Source: Candidatus Kuenenia stuttgartensis (lineage in GTDB: Bacteria > Planctomycetota > Planctomycetia > Pirellulales > UBA1268). From it: 54,458 nt of DNA. The notes below the pieces were generated by a model. It did not search any database. It saw only the letters and a list, made by a program, of their open reading frames with translations, and was not told the origin of the DNA. The DNA is taken from assembly GCA_945870505.1 (NCBI GenBank), contig CAMBSN010000009.1:1-54458 (forward strand), in the 5' to 3' direction. Each line of letters opens with the position of its first letter. Position 1 is the stretch's first letter. Below, one piece after another: positions 4,776 through 52,755 of the stretch. A program made the translations under genes and the position numbers.

Positions 4776-6779
4776 ATGCACCTGATCCGCGTGGCCGGCT
4801 GTGCCCTCAACCAGACGCCCCTCGATTGGGACGGCAACCGCAACCGCATCCTCGCCGCGATCGCCGCCGCCCGCGATGCCGGGGCGTCGATCCTCTGCCT
4901 GCCCGAGCTCTGCATCACCGGCTACGGTTGCGAGGATGCCTTCCAGTCGCCCGGCGTGCAGCGGCTCGCGCTGGAAGTGCTCGGCGAGATCGTGCCAGCC
5001 ACCCGCGGGATCGCCGTGGCGGTGGGGCTGCCGATCCGATTCGAGAGCGGCCTCTTTGACGCGGCGGCCTTCGTCGTCGACGGGACGATCGCGGGCATCG
5101 CCTGCAAGCAGAATCTCGCCGGCGACGGTATCCACTACGAGCCCCGGTGGTTCCGACCGTGGGTTCGCGGTCGCCGGGGCACGGTGCCGGTCGGCGACCG
5201 CGACGTGGCGATCGGCGACCTACGGTTTGCCTGTGGCGGGATCCGCGTGGGCTTTGAGATCTGCGAGGACGCCTGGGTGGCCGACCGGCCAGGAGCGGCG
5301 CTCGCAGCCCGGGGCATCGACCTGATCCTCAACCCATCGGCCAGCCACTTCGCGTTCGACAAGGACGAGATCCGCCGTCGATTCGTGCAGGACGGTTCGC
5401 GGGCGTTCGCCGCCGGCTACGTCTACGCCAACCTCGTCGGCAACGAGGCGGGACGCGCGATCTACGACGGCGGCGTGCTCGTCGCCGCGGCTGGCCGGAT
5501 GCTCGCGGCGGGGCGGCGGTTCTCGTTCGCGGACCGCGTGTTGACGGTGGCCGACGTCGATGTCGATGCCCTGCGATTGGCCCAGTGCCGACTGGCCGTC
5601 GAGCCCGTCGCCGATGCCGTTGAGGGGGACCGAATCGACGTGCCCTTCGCGCTCTCCCGGGTGACCTCGCCAGTGGTCGCCCCGACTGGGGATGCACGCG
5701 ACGCTTGGGAGTACGGTGGCCACGTCAAGGAGGAGGAGTTCACGCGGGCCGTAGCCCTTGGCCTGTTCGACTACGCTCGCAAGAGCAGGTCTCGTGGGTT
5801 TGTGGTCTCGGCCAGCGGCGGCGCCGACTCGTCGGCCGTGGCCTGCCTGGTCGCGATTGCCGTGCGACTTGCGGCGGGAGAACTCTCCGTGGTTGAGGCC
5901 GCCCGTCGCCTTGGCCTGCCCGTGTCCGATGCCGTCGCAGACGACGCGGCGCACCGGCTCGTTCCGGCGACGCTCACCTGCGTCTACCAGGCGACGGCCA
6001 ACTCCGGCGACGTCACCCGGTCTGCGGCCCGCGGGCTGGCGGAGGCCCTCGGCGCCACCTTTCACGAGTTTGACATCGAGGCGATTGTTCGCGGCTACGA
6101 GGCCATCGTGTCACGGGCGATCGGCTGGCCCCTCTCGTGGGACCGCGACGACGTGGCACTCCAAAACATTCAGGCACGGGTCCGGTCGCCCGGCGTGTGG
6201 ATGATCGCCAACATCACCGGCGCCCTGCTCGTGGCGACAAGTAACCGCTCCGAAGCCGCGGTCGGCTATGCCACCATGGACGGCGATACGTCGGGCGGCA
6301 TCGCGCCGCTCGCCGGCATCGACAAGGCCTACCTCCGCCGGTGGCTTCGCTGGCTTGAGCAGGGGGGCCCTGAGGGTATCGGGCCGATCCCCGCGCTCGC
6401 GGCGGTCAACGTCCAGGCGCCGACCGCTGAACTGAGGCCAGCGGCGTCGGGCCAGACCGACGAGTCTGATCTGATGCCCTACGACGTCCTCGACGCGATC
6501 GAGCGGGCGGCCATTCGCGATAAGCAGACCCCACTCGAGTCATGGCTACGACTTTGCGGAGAGTTTCGCGGACACGATTCGCAGCAGTTGGCCGCCTGGA
6601 CGGAGCGGTTCTTCGTTCTCTGGAGCCGCAACCAGTGGAAGCGGGAACGGTATGCCCCATCGTTTCACCTCGACGACGAGAATCTCGATCCCAAGACCTG
6701 GTGCCGGTTCCCCATCCTCTCCGGCGGCTTCACCCGGGAACTCGCCGACCTCCGAGCGGCCGTCGCCGCGACGGCCTGA
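4776..6779 (+). CDS. nadE: Glutamine-dependent NAD+ synthetase
   Basis: A 667-residue two-domain enzyme that amidates nicotinate adenine dinucleotide to NAD+, using ammonia channelled from glutamine. The N-terminal nitrilase-type amidase domain (about 1-270) carries the expected E44 (LPELCITGY), K111 (CKQNLAGDG) and C163 (FEICEDAW) triad. The C-terminal ATP-pyrophosphatase domain begins around residue 310 and has the SGGADSS P-loop near residue 347. Further signatures are the NIQARVRSPGVWMIAN and ATSNRSEAAVGYATMDGD motifs. Length and architecture fit the long, glutamine-using NadE found in many bacteria. The start at ATG 4776 begins directly with the amidase beta strand. NAD kinase is encoded elsewhere in the window (51829-52755). 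The upstream gap has RNA structure that could regulate it. Confidence 0.96.
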   Translation: MHLIRVAGCALNQTPLDWDGNRNRILAAIAAARDAGASILCLPELCITGYGCEDAFQSPGVQRLALEVLGEIVPATRGIAVAVGLPIRFESGLFDAAAFVVDGTIAGIACKQNLAGDGIHYEPRWFRPWVRGRRGTVPVGDRDVAIGDLRFACGGIRVGFEICEDAWVADRPGAALAARGIDLILNPSASHFAFDKDEIRRRFVQDGSRAFAAGYVYANLVGNEAGRAIYDGGVLVAAAGRMLAAGRRFSFADRVLTVADVDVDALRLAQCRLAVEPVADAVEGDRIDVPFALSRVTSPVVAPTGDARDAWEYGGHVKEEEFTRAVALGLFDYARKSRSRGFVVSASGGADSSAVACLVAIAVRLAAGELSVVEAARRLGLPVSDAVADDAAHRLVPATLTCVYQATANSGDVTRSAARGLAEALGATFHEFDIEAIVRGYEAIVSRAIGWPLSWDRDDVALQNIQARVRSPGVWMIANITGALLVATSNRSEAAVGYATMDGDTSGGIAPLAGIDKAYLRRWLRWLEQGGPEGIGPIPALAAVNVQAPTAELRPAASGQTDESDLMPYDVLDAIERAAIRDKQTPLESWLRLCGEFRGHDSQQLAAWTERFFVLWSRNQWKRERYAPSFHLDDENLDPKTWCRFPILSGGFTRELADLRAAVAATA

Positions 6780-9217: not shown

Positions 9218-10360
<1,143 letters not shown>

Positions 10361-10457
10361 GGGGACAGATGAGTCCGTTGGCTCCGCCTGAAGGGCTGGC
10401 GAAGCAAGTGGTGTTCCCGGCCACGGGCGACTTTGGGAGCCTATCCGATTTCACCAC

Positions 10458-10488
10458 AATTGCGAATTCATTTCGCAATTATTGCGAA
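10458..10488. promoter_or_regulatory. Inverted repeat plus third half-site, probable activator-binding enhancer
   Basis: A perfect 9-bp inverted repeat: AATTGCGAA (10458-10466) and TTCGCAATT (10472-10480) around a 5-bp spacer. A third half-site, ATTGCGAA (10481-10488), lies 22 bp (about two helical turns) from the first on the same strand. It sits about 175-200 bp upstream of the predicted sigma-54 start site, a usual distance for an upstream activating sequence. It is also about 100 bp from the start of the divergent activator gene, so it could mediate autoregulation. Binding by the adjacent Fis-type HTH is inferred from position. Confidence 0.6.
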
Positions 10489-10523
10489 GACCGGCTAGCA
10501 GCCTCACGAAAGTGATGAGCCGG

Positions 10524-10568
10524 AAAAATTGGAAAAAGGCGTGAAAAACCATTTTTTTCAAGGTTTTT
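10524..10568. other. Helically phased A/T tracts, predicted intrinsic DNA bend
   Basis: Five homopolymeric runs are centred at about 10526, 10535, 10546, 10555 and 10566: A5, A5, A5, T7 and T5. Their spacing of 9-11 bp matches one helical turn, the classic arrangement for static curvature. The tracts lie midway between the inverted repeat and the -24/-12 promoter in otherwise GC-rich DNA. They probably help the enhancer-bound activator loop onto sigma-54 RNA polymerase. Curvature is predicted, not measured. Confidence 0.55.
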
Positions 10569-10640
10569 CTGGATGCGATGTATCCGGAAAACGGGGTTCG
10601 ATCTCTCCGGCCAGAAAAATATTTTGGAAATCGGTCGAGT

Positions 10641-10657
10641 TTGGCACGGAAATCGCT
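10641..10657 (+). promoter_or_regulatory. Sigma-54 (-24/-12) promoter for the PEP-CTERM gene
   Basis: TTGGCACGGAAATCGCT matches the consensus TTGGCACG-N4-TTGCT with one mismatch (TCGC instead of TTGC). The invariant GG (10643-10644) and GC (10655-10656) are exactly 10 bp apart, as sigma-54 requires. Transcription would start near 10667, giving a leader of about 55 nt before the ATG at 10722. A bEBP gene lies divergently next door and a palindromic enhancer-like site lies upstream. Confidence 0.72.
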
Positions 10658-10721
10658 CTGTAAGGGGGTGTCGGTGGTGATCGCCGACAGGATTGCCCGG
10701 AAGAAAAAAGGAACCCCGCCA

Positions 10722-11684
10722 ATGCGTGCCTTGTTCGCCTGCTTGCCCCAAACCGTTGCCTGTGCCGCCGCCCTCGTGATGGGCGTGGCGGTCATGCCTT
10801 GCGGGAAAGCTGCTCCCTTGTCGCCGGCACTAATCTACGGGGTTACGGTCGACAACGACATCAAGCGATTCGATACCCAGGATCAGAGCTTCTCGTTTGT
10901 GGCGACTTCGCTTTCGACGGGGGTCAAGGCCAACGGCTTCGCAACCGATCGCATCAGGAATCACCTCTTCTACTTCGGGTCGAATGGCGACCTCTATTAC
11001 TACACGACCACCGACGGCAGCGCGGGCACGGTTGCGCCGGCATCCACGTTTGGCAATGTCACCGACTTTCCGCCCGAGGACGCGGGGTTCTACAACGGCG
11101 CGTTCTGGTACATCGGCAAGGGCGACAACTCCAACAACCAGCTCTACCAGGTCCCGATCACCTACACCGGCAATGTGCCCTCGTTCAGCGGCACGCCCAC
11201 GTCGTATCAGCTCTCGGCGAGTGGCAGCACCACAGGCATGGCGTTTGGGGACATCGCCATCCATCGCGACACCGGCATCCTCTACGGATCGACCACGCCC
11301 GGCTCGGGCGGGCTCTTCTTCACGCTCGACATGAACTCGATCAGCTCGGGCACCACGAACCCCGTGAACGTGATCACGTCGGGTAACCCGATCAGTCTGC
11401 AGCTGGCTTTCAGCGAGGACTTTTCCACCCTGTACGGTCAGGAATACCGGTTTGATTCAAACGATCCAACGAACCCTGCATTGACCAGCGGGGTCTGGTA
11501 CACCGTGGACACGACTTCGGGCACCTACAACTCGATCTCCGTCACCACGAGCCCTGGCATGCGTGACCTGGCCGGCGTGGCCGCCGTGCCGGAGCCCGGC
11601 ACCTTCCTGCTCGCCACCGTCGGCTTCGCCGTGGCTCTGGCCTGGAATCGCAAGCCGATCCTGAAGGCGGCCCGCTCGACGTGA
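10722..11684 (+). CDS. PEP-CTERM sorting domain-containing surface protein
   Basis: A 320-residue exported protein. ATG 10722 is preceded by AAGGA at 10708-10712 and opens a signal peptide (MRALFACLPQTVACAAALVMG, cleavage near residue 30). The C-terminus has the sorting signal: VPEPGT, a hydrophobic helix (FLLATVGFAVALAW) and a basic tail (NRKPILKAARST). Exosortase would cleave at this signal; no exosortase gene is in the window. The mature part (YGVTVDNDIKRFDTQDQSF, KANGFATDRIRNHLFYFGSNGDLYYYTT) resembles beta-propeller-like repeats seen in DUF4394/WD-type surface proteins and is Asn/Ser/Thr rich. It is driven by a predicted sigma-54 promoter. The stop overlaps the GTG start of a MEKHLA gene, so the two are translationally coupled. 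Confidence 0.88.
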   Translation: MRALFACLPQTVACAAALVMGVAVMPCGKAAPLSPALIYGVTVDNDIKRFDTQDQSFSFVATSLSTGVKANGFATDRIRNHLFYFGSNGDLYYYTTTDGSAGTVAPASTFGNVTDFPPEDAGFYNGAFWYIGKGDNSNNQLYQVPITYTGNVPSFSGTPTSYQLSASGSTTGMAFGDIAIHRDTGILYGSTTPGSGGLFFTLDMNSISSGTTNPVNVITSGNPISLQLAFSEDFSTLYGQEYRFDSNDPTNPALTSGVWYTVDTTSGTYNSISVTTSPGMRDLAGVAAVPEPGTFLLATVGFAVALAWNRKPILKAARST

Positions 11685-12169
11685 AGCGACGGGGGGCGAC
11701 AAGTCCGGAGCCCTGGAGCCGGCCAGACTGGGTCGCCAGAGCCCGGCTGATCATCGAGTCCTACGCCACGCTGCTCGGCCGGCCGCTGATCGATCCCGAG
11801 GGGAGCGACATCGCCAGGGCAGAGCGGCTCTATCGGTCGCTGTTCGTCGTGGTCGCCCATGGCACCGAGATCGACCCGATGCTCTCGTATGGCAACGACG
11901 CGGCGCTGCGGCTCTGGGAGATGGACGCAGACGTCCTGCTGCGGACGCCGTCGCGACTAACCGCGGAGTTCGTGCACCGGGAGGAACGGGCACGGCTACT
12001 CGAGCGGACCCGTCGCGAGGGCTTTGTCGACGACTATTCGGGGGTGCGGATCACCCGGACCGGCCGCCGCTTCAAGATCGAACGTGCCATCGTCTGGAAC
12101 CTGATCGATGCCGCCGGCACGCTCCACGGGCAGGCCGCGACGTTCGACCAGTGGACGCCCCTGGGCTGA
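11681..12169 (+). CDS. MEKHLA domain-containing protein
   Basis: A 162-residue cytoplasmic protein consisting almost entirely of a MEKHLA domain, a PAS-like ligand-sensing fold also found at the C-terminus of plant HD-ZIP III factors. Seen motifs are SYGNDAALRLWEMD (about 70-83), a TPSRLTAEFVHREERARLLERTRREGF-type segment (about 90-115), YSGVRITRTGRRFKIERA (about 119-136) and VWNLIDAAGTLHGQAATF (about 138-155). The GTG start at 11681 overlaps the TGA stop of the PEP-CTERM gene (GTGA), implying translational coupling. No output domain is attached, so it may sense a small molecule, redox state or light and act on a partner. The neighbouring sensor-less sigma-54 activator is one candidate; this link is inference. 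Confidence 0.85.
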   Translation: MKRRGATSPEPWSRPDWVARARLIIESYATLLGRPLIDPEGSDIARAERLYRSLFVVVAHGTEIDPMLSYGNDAALRLWEMDADVLLRTPSRLTAEFVHREERARLLERTRREGFVDDYSGVRITRTGRRFKIERAIVWNLIDAAGTLHGQAATFDQWTPLG

Positions 12170-38711: not shown

Positions 38712-41700
38712 ATGAGATCCCTCGCCGACCTACTCTGGACGATCGTTCGCTGGACGCTGCCGCTCTCAGTCGCGGCGGTCGTGGTGGCGGTCGTGCTGGG
38801 CTCCAACCGCGTCGGCGAAGAGGTCCGCCGCCGCGTGGAGGCGCGACTGCAGGCGATGCTCCCGCGCCTCGCGGTCCACGTCGGGGGTGCGAGCCTCGTC
38901 GAGGGCGAGGGGATTGTTGTGCGGCGAATCTCGGTTGTTGATCCCGCCCAGCCATCCGACAGGAATACGCTGCTCACGATCGAGGAGGCGCGGGTCGCGT
39001 GTGGCACCGGGATCAAGGATCTGCTGGCGGGAGATCCACAGATCACATCCCTGCGGGTCGTGCGGCCCGTCGTGCATGCCCGTCGCGGCGCCGACGGTGG
39101 CTGGAGCCTCGCTTCGCTCGTCGGGAAAGGCGGCCGTGGCGACCTCGCGATTCCGGTGGCCATCGAGGACGCGACGCTCCTCGTTGATGCCGAGGGGGTA
39201 GGGGGTCGCCTGACCCTGCGCAACATCGGCATCGACCTCCGGCCGGCGGCCGGGCTCGATGGCGGGCCGGCCGTCCTCGTTCGCGGTGCGGTGGGAGGCG
39301 ACCTCTTCGACCGCGCGGTGTTCGAAGGACGGATCCTCGCCGCCGGTGGCTTCGAACTCGCTGGTCAGGTCGAGTCGCTCGAGCTCTCGCCGCGGCTGCG
39401 GGGCCTGGTGCAAGCCGCCGCCACGGCTCCCGAGTGGCTCGCCGGGCTGCGAGGCCGCCTCGACGTGGAGTGGCGAACATCGGGCGACCTCGCCACGCTC
39501 GACCGCTCAGCCTTCACCGTCGCCGGCCGGCTCGAATCGGGCCACTTCGAGTACCCCGGGCTGCCGTTCACGATCAGCGACGTGTCGGCCGCGTTCACCG
39601 CCGACCGGAGCGGCGTGAGAGTGGAGCGGGTCGAGGCCCACTCGGGCTCGACGCTGGTCCGTGGTGCCGGCCGCTTCGCCGGCTGGGACGCCACGGCCGA
39701 CTACGACGTCACCGTGGAGGCGGAACGCATGCTCGTGGGCCATCACTGGGAAGGTCTTCTGCCCGAGTCGGTGGCGTCGCACTGGAGCAAGTTGCTTCCG
39801 GCGGGGGAGGTCGACGTGCGGGCCCATCTCGTGCGGCATGCCGGTACGGTGACGCCCGACGTGTCGCTGCGGTGTCGCAACGTATCGCTGACCTACTATC
39901 GCTTCCCGTATCGGGTCGATCGGACGGTTGGCACGGTCTCCCTCAAGGATGACCTTCTCTCGATGCACCTCACTGGCGAGGCTGGCGGGCATCCCGTCAC
40001 CGTCGAGGGGGCCGTCTGCACGACGAACGGAGGTCGCGGGGTCGTTGAAGTCCGCGGAGACGGGATGCGGATCGACGACGCGCTGCTCGCCGCCATGCCC
40101 ACGCGGAGCGCCGACATCGTGCGGTCGCTTCGCGGCGCCGGCACGTTCGACTTTGTGTTTCGGCACGAACGATCGGCCGACCTGCCCGGTGGATTCGCTA
40201 ACTCGCTCGGGATCCACCTCGCGCAGTGCACGATGGCCTACGCCGGCTTCCCCTATCCGCTCGGGAACGTCACCGGCAGCATCCACATGGACCGTGGGAA
40301 CTGGACGATTCGCGAGATCACCGGCTCGAACGACACGGGGGTGGTGCGGTGCACCGGCCGGCTCCAGCGGATCGGCGAGGACGACAGCGAACTGACGCTG
40401 CATCTCGCCGGAACCAATGTGGTGCTCGAGAAGGAGCTTCGCGACGCGCTGCCGCCGGGCGTTCGCCGCATCTGGGACGACGTCACGCCCCGCGGCACTG
40501 CGGAGTTCACCGCTGAGGTGAGGCACCGCGTCAAGCAGCGACGGACCGAGGTGGAGATCGTCGCCGCGCCGCAGGGCGACACCGTGTCGATCGAGCCGTC
40601 ATGGTTTCCCTACCGCCTCGAGCGGCTCCGCGGTCGCCTGCACTGGAAGGATGGCGTTCTCGCCTTCGACGACGTCCGCGGCGCACACGCGCGGACTGCC
40701 GTGTCAGCCGAGGGCACCTGTCGATTTTCGCCCGACGGTGGCTGGCACGTCTCGTTCGCCCGGCTGGCCGCCGACCGGTTTCACGCCGACCACGACGTCC
40801 TCAGGGCGCTTCCTGCAGGGCTCCGGCAGGCGGTCGCCGGAGTGCATTTGCGGGGCATGCTCTCGGTGGACGGCGCCCTCGAAATCTATTCCACGGCACC
40901 GCAGGTCGTGACCGGCCCCGGCGGCCGCACGGAGGTCACCCCCGGCCCGGCCGCTGCGGCCTGGGACATGCAACTCGACATGGAGCAGGCGGCGCTCGAC
41001 GTGGGGATGCCGCTGGAGCACGTGCATGGCGGGATCCGGCTCCGTGGCCAATCCGACGGCACCACCTGGCGGAGCCTCGGCGACGTGGCGATCGACAGCG
41101 CGATGTGGCGGGGCGTGCAACTGACGTCCGTCTGCGGCCCGTTGGCGATGGATGCTGCCGGCGCGCGGTTCGGTGCCCAGGCCGGCGCCGATCCTCAAGC
41201 AGCGGCGCGGCGGATGACGGCTCGAGTCGCCGACGGGATCCTGGAGGTTGACGGCAGCGTGGCGGCGGGCGACGCCGGTGCCTTCGCGGTGACCGCATCA
41301 CTCTCGAACGCCGACCTTGCCCGGGTGGCTGGCGACATGAGCGGCGGACCGCACCATTACCAGGGGCGGGTGCACGGAGGCATCGAGATTCGTGGATCGC
41401 GGGCCGGTACTCACTCGCTCGTCGGCAGGGGACAGGTGAAGCTCACCGATGCCGACATCTACGAGTTGCCTGTCACCGTTGCCCTGCTGAAGATCCTGCG
41501 GGTGAAGAATCCCGATCGCAACGCGTTCACGAGCAGCCTCGTCGACTTCAGAATCGAAGGACCGCACGCCTATCTCGACACCATCGAACTCTCGGGCGAC
41601 GCCATCAGCCTGGTGGGTAACGGTGAGGTCGACTTCGACTCGCAGATCAATCTCGTACTGCGGCCGATCATGGGTGAGGCGGAGACGCAGTTGCCGGCGA

Positions 41701-51832: not shown

Positions 51833-52755
51833 GTGCCGCCCCGCGTCGTGGGCCGCTCGGCGGCCCGCAGGCCGCCGCCCCAGGCCAGCTTCTCGCGGAG
51901 CGTGCCGTAGTAGCCGTGCCGCCCAGTCTCGACGAGCGTGAAGCGGGGTTCCGCGCGGCGGACCCGGATCCGGTCGCCGGGCTCGAGGCCCGTCACCACG
52001 CGGCCATCGACCACGCAGGCCGAGCCCGCATTCGGCTCAGCCACGACAATCTCGTAGGTGCGGGCGGCGGAGTCGACGACGGTGCGGTTGGTGAGCGTGT
52101 GCGGGTTGAGTGGCGTGAACACGAACGCGTCGAGGTCCTTGCGGACGATTGGGCCTCCGGCCGAGAGGTTGTAGGCGGTCGACCCCACCGGCGTCGAGAC
52201 GATCAGCCCGTCGGCGCGGTACGTGGTGGCGGGCTCTCCGTCGACGATCAGGCCGATCTCAATCATCGAAAACGGCGGGCCCGCGAGGATCGACGTCTCG
52301 TTGAGGCCGAGTTCACGAGGCACCACTGTGGCGTTTCCACGGACGACCTCCGTCTCGAACATCAGATGGTCGACAAGTTGGAATCCGCCGGCCGCGATGC
52401 CGCGGATCGCCTCCGCGGCGGCGGCGCGAGGCACGTCGGCGAGAAAGCCGAGCCGCCCAAGGTTTACACCAAGCACGGGGATCTGGTCGTACGCCATCCA
52501 GCGGGCGGCGCGGAGGATCGAGCCGTCGCCCCCGATGACCACCACGACGTCGGTGGCCGAGGGGCAGGGGGGCTTTTCGGCGGTGCTTGGAGGCGGAGCC
52601 AGGAGCGCGGTCGCCTCGTGACCGGCGTCGCGGATCAGTGCCGCGACCCGGTCGGCCTCTGCCGCCACGTCGGGCCTGTCAGCGGGGCCGACGATCGCAA
52701 ACCGCAGCGGGGCTGCAGCGGCATGACCGGGACGCAATCGAGAGCCGCTGGGCAT
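51829..52755 (-). CDS. nadK: NAD kinase
   Basis: A 308-residue ATP-NAD kinase making NADP+. The nucleotide-binding GGDGS is at 75-79 (DVVVVIGGDGSILRAAR). VLGVNLGRLGFLADV, RELGLNETSI and the YRADGLIVSTPVGSTAYNLSAGGPIV block, which forms the NAD site, are all intact. An Ala/Pro-rich N-terminal extension of about 18 residues precedes the first strand, as in several planctomycete orthologues. The start ATG lies 24 bp after the dxs stop, and its own stop overlaps the next gene by four bases. NADPH is needed for the reductase steps downstream of dxs in isoprenoid synthesis, so the pairing makes metabolic sense. Confidence 0.94.
   Translation of the reverse strand: MPSGSRLRPGHAAAAPLRFAIVGPADRPDVAAEADRVAALIRDAGHEATALLAPPPSTAEKPPCPSATDVVVVIGGDGSILRAARWMAYDQIPVLGVNLGRLGFLADVPRAAAAEAIRGIAAGGFQLVDHLMFETEVVRGNATVVPRELGLNETSILAGPPFSMIEIGLIVDGEPATTYRADGLIVSTPVGSTAYNLSAGGPIVRKDLDAFVFTPLNPHTLTNRTVVDSAARTYEIVVAEPNAGSACVVDGRVVTGLEPGDRIRVRRAEPRFTLVETGRHGYYGTLREKLAWGGGLRAAERPTTRGGT

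Follow-up and report, generated by a model that had tools for sequence, protein, structure and literature searches.

A sigma-54 control region of a planctomycete PEP-CTERM gene as a probable member of a larger regulon with two operators and two receiver-less activators

The control region at positions 10361-10721 most probably represents one promoter of a sigma-54-dependent PEP-CTERM regulon of a planctomycete, in which the activator EBP-A would act on an operator designated A and the related activator EBP-B on an operator designated B (probability about 0.83). This reading draws on the anatomy of the locus, the enrichment and conservation of its elements and the sister relation of both activators, all of which are read directly from the DNA. 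The locus thereby appears to belong to a larger pattern of two surface-protein gene sets and two related sensorless activators. The window, i.e., the whole stretch of DNA that was analysed (54,458 nucleotides), corresponds to contig C9 of a 3.35 Mb planctomycete assembly (180 contigs, 87 % complete; G000, in the following termed own genome). TIGR03009 and TIGR04138, families named for planctomycetes, were found near the control region. The locus comprises the following features:

9218-10360, minus strand: EBP-A, sigma-54 activator (380 aa), AAA+ with GAFTGA loop and Fis-type HTH
10449-10467, plus strand: A operator unit 1, TTTCACCACAATTGCGAAT, one mismatch from TTTCRC-N7-GCGAAA
10471-10489, plus strand: A operator unit 2, TTTCGCAATTATTGCGAAG, one mismatch, 22 bp from unit 1
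10642-10657, plus strand: sigma-54 promoter (-24/-12), TGGCACGGAAATCGCT, 152 bp beyond the operator array
10710-10712, plus strand: probable ribosome binding site GGA, read from sequence, 9 bases ahead of the ATG
10722-11684, plus strand: PEP-CTERM protein gene (320 aa)
11583-11654, plus strand: PEP-CTERM sorting motif, VPEPGTFLLATVGFAVALAWNRKP
11681-12169, plus strand: MEKHLA-domain gene (PF08670, E 1.2e-49)

The divergent activator gene and the absence of a histidine kinase or receiver had both been recognized by the first-pass annotation of this DNA, and both observations hold. EBP-A is identified as a sigma-54 activator (bEBP) by PF00158 (Sigma54_activat; E 1e-64, 217.7 bits), the GAFTGA loop and an HTH domain (HTH_8, 23.3 bits, cut-off 22), accompanied by AAA_lid_14. 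No receiver (PF00072) or other sensor domain was matched in the profile scan of EBP-A, and neither histidine kinase nor receiver families were matched among the nine scanned proteins (EBP-A and its neighbours). PspF (TIGR02974) is a receiver-less activator composed of AAA+ and HTH domains, lacking an N-terminal sensor domain. EBP-A shares this architecture, but differs from PspF in its score (236.6 bits against the TIGR02974 cut-off of 443.55) and in having a surface protein as target; psp families were not matched among the scanned neighbours of EBP-A.

The product of the divergently oriented gene is a PEP-CTERM protein, as assigned previously (PF07589, 24.3 bits, cut-off 20.7). Its start was set at 10722, since the ATG at 10578 is located upstream of the promoter. 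The TGA stop of this gene overlaps the GTG start (11681) of the gene for the MEKHLA-domain protein, a domain which we take to be PAS-like, and both genes are probably co-transcribed.

The promoter TGGCACGGAAATCGCT is near-consensus, with GG at 10643-10644, GC at 10655-10656 and exactly the N10 spacing that had been reported for it; it corresponds to the -24/-12 element (motif 2) of the proteobacterial PEP-CTERM box. Its first 15 bases are the same in the relatives G005 and G015. The pattern TGGCACGNNNNTYGCW occurs once in the window, namely at this promoter (0.10 in shuffles), but its looser form YGGCACGNNNNYYGCW shows no enrichment across the genome (47 sites versus 73 in the reversed control). 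The motif alone is thus weak proof and was rejected as evidence in its own right; what counts is its placement. A scan for sigma-70 promoters and terminators yielded no sigma-70 promoter-like site, and terminator-like sites were at chance level.

The operator consists of two tandem 19-bp units of the form TTTCRC-N7-GCGAAA. At one mismatch this pattern has 3 matches in the window (both strands counted), compared to 0.42 in shuffles. The TGCGAAT of unit 1 is unchanged in nine aligned loci (window, L032-L038, L042), and in relative G015 unit 2 is perfect and unit 1 off by one mismatch. Spacer positions beyond the search pattern are also kept, with A/C and A/G on the left and C/T and G/T on the right in 93 % each (both strands counted). 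A different unit had initially been proposed, i.e., a perfect 9-bp inverted repeat with a third half-site. The sequence is indeed present (AATTGCGAA-N5-TTCGCAATT at 10458-10480, followed by ATTGCGAA), but a genome-wide search for it, as had been recommended, retrieved this single copy, no other repeat of this kind (spacer 0-12) being present in the assembly, whereas TTTCRC-N7-GCGAAA recurs and is the unit used by the other promoters; the inverted repeat was therefore rejected as operator unit.

The own genome harbours 45 PF07589 matches, one RpoN, one exosortase (the only match in the assembly; PF09721 at C3:27504, E 1.2e-48) and eight strong sigma-54 activators among 12 matches. Allowing at most three mismatches, the A operator TTCGCAATNATTGCGAA was found at 16 places (reversed control: 2), of which 11, including two that overlap, are located upstream of five PEP-CTERM genes with sigma-54 sites (C9, i.e., the present locus, C61, C177, C115 and C1:59750). 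A second palindrome, the B operator TGGNGCGAWTCGCNCCA, occurs 21 times exactly and 35 times with at most one mismatch, with none in the reversed controls, and precedes PEP-CTERM genes on C43, C81, C85 and C37 (with sigma-54 sites) as well as on C50. This genome is predicted to contain at least five PEP-CTERM promoters of the A type, the present one included, and at least six of the B type. A strictly local one-to-one circuit was rejected, since A and B sites recur genome-wide in arrays. From the sigma-54 circuit originally described, the promoter, the upstream activator site and the divergent receiver-less activator are retained, but the circuit extends beyond this locus.

Two or more operator units were counted as an array, and a sigma-54 site within 320 bp was regarded as strong at a score of at least 21 of 24 (our own scoring scheme). 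Loci of relatives were picked by operator match alone (at least 20 A places and at least 20 B places, the latter from G002, G014 and G035 only), and mostly display the same order of operators, sigma-54 site and PEP-CTERM-like gene. The arrays are distributed as follows:

A arrays, own genome: 5 in total, 5 with strong sigma-54 site, 5 with PEP-CTERM-like tail, 0 cut off
A arrays, relatives: 8 in total, 7 with strong sigma-54 site, 6 with PEP-CTERM-like tail, 2 cut off
B arrays, own genome: 11 in total, 10 with strong sigma-54 site, 7 with PEP-CTERM-like tail, 2 cut off
B arrays, relatives: 20 in total, 18 with strong sigma-54 site, 12 with PEP-CTERM-like tail, 3 cut off

A strong sigma-54 site accompanies 40 of the 44 arrays, compared to 114 of 2000 random positions (own-genome DNA). 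Among the 37 uncut arrays, 30 are followed by a gene whose product has a PEP-CTERM-like tail according to a rule of our own. This rule is also triggered by a few false frames (e.g., on the plus strand of C43 and near C3 and G026:C156). All 30 targets were therefore examined again as whole proteins with Pfam, an outcome that slightly weakens the overall reading: 13 scored above the PF07589 cut-off, 14 below (12.8-19.8 bits) and three were unmatched, the tails of the latter (L358, L166, L383) being read by eye. Within the own genome, 12 of 14 uncut arrays are located before PEP-CTERM-like genes by the tail rule (binomial P 4e-20), and 9 of 14 if only PF07589 matches over the cut-off are considered (binomial P 2e-14; 2,900 genes assumed in both cases). 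Conversely, only 10 of the 45 PF07589 matches are preceded by an array, and the array targets on C40 and C127 are outside the 45. Some targets contain other domains, i.e., FGE-sulfatase (2), PATR repeats (2 over cut-off), lamin-tail and Vgb_lyase. Neighbouring units are mostly spaced by 21-23 or 31-33 bp, corresponding to roughly two or three helical turns, and the distance from array end to sigma-54 site is 42-197 bp, mostly 85-152 bp. Seven uncut arrays have no PEP-CTERM-like target; six of them lead to a different, recurrent operon (C67, C69, L375, L376, L382, L388; see below). Array L386 has a PEP-CTERM tail gene to one side and no strong promoter.

Several single sites were not accepted as operators. 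The near-match at C56:3219-3237, beyond which a PEP-CTERM gene is located, is a single unit inside an upstream reading frame and has no strong sigma-54 site. None of the other single sites of the own genome (C1:14701, C6, C3:29129, C23, C17:41887, C19, C67:12664) is accompanied by a sigma-54 site with a score of 21 or more, and all of them were attributed to chance.

The second activator is encoded elsewhere in the genome:

C1:13345-14427: EBP-B, sister activator of EBP-A, no receiver (PF00072) matched

EBP-A and EBP-B form one clade (support 100/99) that excludes the remaining six strong activators of the genome, with long outer branches (A_L054, a frame with a long extra tail, was left out of the tree). 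The recognition helix GVSLNTMTRL is conserved in EBP-A of the window and L032-L044, and GVHANTMTRLL in the 18 EBP-B proteins of the genus that were read, own included. Co-occurrence of activators and sites was assessed across 37 same-family genomes, with presence of the activators taken from the matches listed and from C-termini (confirmed by sequence in G026 and G034; G030 and G032 from the match list alone). Among the matches listed and with kinship ignored, exact B sites are present in 24 of 25 genomes with EBP-B and in 2 of 12 without (P 1.9e-6), and exact A sites follow EBP-A weakly (14 of 21 with, 4 of 16 without; P 0.014). Since B sites correlate with EBP-A as well (P 0.003; A sites with EBP-B, P 0.17; kinship again ignored), the A/B pairing is not cleanly separated. 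G009 and G016 possess B sites, with EBP-B absent among the matches listed. Taken together, EBP-A likely binds the A operators, as suggested by adjacency, and EBP-B likely binds the B operators, as suggested by co-occurrence with exceptions.

According to the proposed mechanism, EBP-A would sit on the two tandem A operators and be brought by DNA looping to sigma-54 RNA polymerase at 10642-10657, driving the PEP-CTERM gene together with the overlapping MEKHLA gene. The A units are also located 89-129 bases upstream of the EBP-A start, so that EBP-A probably autoregulates. In trans, it may act on at least four more PEP-CTERM genes (contigs C61, C177, C115 and C1), whereas EBP-B would most likely act via the B operator on the second PEP-CTERM gene set and on the small operon mentioned above. 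As no sensor domain was matched, the amount of activator or a partner protein presumably determines activity.

It is unlikely that the operators are instead bound by other regulators (a repressor or, in case of B, e.g., the activator C14:44369, which is likewise devoid of a receiver and may bind B) while EBP-A or EBP-B act elsewhere. Such an arrangement would be compatible with operator assignments drawn from adjacency and co-occurrence, with the absence of a B site near EBP-B in all 21 loci, and with the near absence of exact B sites outside the family (1 of 23 genomes), although EBP-B-like proteins with a very similar recognition helix are present there (seven read). It is opposed by the presence of an A unit ahead of EBP-A in all nine close loci aligned, and by the repeat distances of the units (21-23 or 31-33 bp) and their position 42-197 bp from sigma-54 sites, which correspond to the geometry of activator sites.

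The recurrent operon behind B operators and sigma-54 sites encodes a small, apparently exported protein, one or two receiver-like proteins that stand alone, or both, and was found at the following loci:

L350:5384-5911 (C69): pseudo-receiver operon
L349:5694-6179 and 6250-6759 (C67): pseudo-receiver operon
L376:1441-2977: pseudo-receiver operon
L375, L382, L388 and L380: pseudo-receiver operon

The receiver-like proteins score below the PF00072 cut-off (3 of 3 scanned), and the phosphate-accepting aspartate is replaced by Ala (7) or Ser (1) in all eight aligned proteins. At L376, a PEP-CTERM gene is located downstream of the operon. One may speculate, albeit with little probability, that a PrsR-type regulator is present in split form, in which the receiver-less activators would obtain their input in trans from the pseudo-receivers of the B regulon and, in case of EBP-A, from the MEKHLA protein. 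As the pseudo-receivers are devoid of the phosphate-accepting aspartate, such control would bypass their phosphorylation.

Activators related to EBP-A were found in all 60 genomes searched (own included), with EBP-A-type matches of at least 366 bits in at least 21 of the 37 same-family genomes (own included). Among the matches listed from a scan of named genomes, at least 80 were generic activators with 36-52 % identity, and none represented a close named relative. For comparison, 27 activator loci were used, i.e., the window and 26 around better matches (L053, where the gene runs to the contig end and has no upstream region, was dropped; L056-L058 group with EBP-B in the tree). Gene order around EBP-A is largely kept in the window and L032-L041, as far as contigs reach, and in these 11 loci the MEKHLA gene is located at the opposite end of the region upstream of EBP-A. 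The slot in between varies: the PEP-CTERM protein of the window is matched only in G005 and G015 (L032, L033) among the 27 loci, other PEP-CTERM genes occupy the slot in L039-L041, and no divergent PEP-CTERM gene is present in L034-L038. The more distant L043 and L046-L049 likewise show PEP-CTERM genes in divergent orientation to the activator. All 11 loci with a divergent PEP-CTERM gene possess a sigma-54 site that scores 21 or more, compared to only 1 of 13 without (L054, score 21.0; Fisher P 4.8e-6) and 2 of 3 loci cut by contig ends; the corresponding numbers for an A unit, with two mismatches tolerated, are 8 of 11, 8 of 13 and 1 of 3 (L051 and L042, with PEP-CTERM frames near but not divergent from the activator, were counted as without). 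The first-pass annotation had regarded absence of the promoter/operator pair from orthologous loci as evidence against the circuit. In the loci compared, the promoter invariably accompanies a divergent PEP-CTERM gene, but the five close orthologues L034-L038 keep activator and operator and have neither such a gene nor a strong promoter, so that the local pair is not obligate.

The same distribution bears on the improbable view that the A operator mainly serves autoregulation of EBP-A, the PEP-CTERM gene being a bystander inserted later between the EBP-A and MEKHLA genes. Retention of the operator in L034-L038 and L042 despite the missing divergent PEP-CTERM gene would agree with this, as would the restriction of the window's PEP-CTERM protein to two relatives. 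A mere bystander is, however, difficult to reconcile with the tight association of strong sigma-54 sites with divergent PEP-CTERM genes, with the occupation of the same slot by PEP-CTERM genes in L039-L041, and with A arrays before four more PEP-CTERM genes of the own genome and six in relatives. The MEKHLA gene adjoins EBP-A also in L034-L041, including loci without a divergent PEP-CTERM gene; this constancy may indicate a functional link or just regional synteny.

That PEP-CTERM genes can be controlled by sigma-54 is known from proteobacteria. In the report by Haft (2006; PMC1569441), an activator motif combined with a sigma-54 promoter is described before 99 of 167 proteobacterial PEP-CTERM genes, the regulon is tied to PrsK, PrsR and PrsT, the motif is shared only by proteobacteria among the species discussed, and more regulators and motifs are expected to be discovered. 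The PrsK/PrsR/PrsT regulon resembles the present case in its long upstream regions, a possibly repeated activator motif followed by a -24/-12 promoter, and a Fis-type activator (PMC1569441). In contrast to PrsR with its receiver and kinase partner, the planctomycete activators are devoid of a receiver, and instead of motif 1, which ends with TTTACA and averages 62.8 bases from the promoter, two other operators are present at mostly 85-152 bases (PMC1569441). Neither EBP-A (253 bits) nor EBP-B (273 bits) reaches the cut-off of TIGR02915 (PrsR; 502.6 bits) or contains PF00072. Derivation from the proteobacterial PrsK/PrsR system by mere loss of the receiver would agree with the shared target class, sigma-54 promoter type and Fis-type activator, but is very unlikely given that none of the eight strong activators reaches the TIGR02915 cut-off (best 371 bits) and that TTTACA does not occur in 10361-10721 (once in the window, at 52463; motif 1 was compared by this end alone and in this window only).

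For pepA of Aquincola tertiaricarbonis, the need for sigma-54 was demonstrated by primer extension and an rpoN1 mutant, with the promoter TGGCAC/CTGCTT and PrsK-PrsR suggested as accessory system (PMC9850573). The planctomycete gene shares the sigma-54 promoter with this proteobacterial case, but is known from sequence alone. In its main text, a 2025 survey of sigma-54 regulons including planctomycetes mentions neither PEP-CTERM nor exosortase (PMC12316311). Titles and abstract openings of the literature matches listed, a scope mostly outside the subscription literature, contained no report of a planctomycete PEP-CTERM sigma-54 regulon. Sigma-54 activators of Pirellula were reportedly studied by Studholme and Dixon. 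The new regulatory design initially claimed thus narrows to the receiver-less activator clade and the two operators, since sigma-54 control of PEP-CTERM genes was already known in proteobacteria (PMC1569441). The two operators, together with the two candidate activators and the target genes found, provide a concrete regulatory code for a planctomycete family, marking surface proteins that may switch together, and may help to reveal the purpose of the exosortase system in these bacteria.

Individual promoters deviate from the general organization. The best-looking promoter of the PEP-CTERM gene with B operators on C50 (L148), TTTGGCACGGGAGTGCA, has N9 between GG and GC and is possibly decayed. 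The upstream regions of C37 and C81 (L160, L154) contain a common dispersed repeat (GCCGACCGGCCGTAAGGCCGCGGGCG...) just upstream of the operator arrays. On C17 (L347), a PEP-CTERM promoter has a single B unit (38833-38849) upstream and an A-like unit (38956-38974) downstream of its sigma-54 site, with one mismatch each, which may indicate cross-control or chance. The EBP-A relatives of L045-L049 and L052 have altered recognition helices (GVSPNT, GVSRNT, GVCPNT, GVHLNT), and their loci possess strong sigma-54 sites but at most a single A unit, suggesting further operator types beyond A and B.
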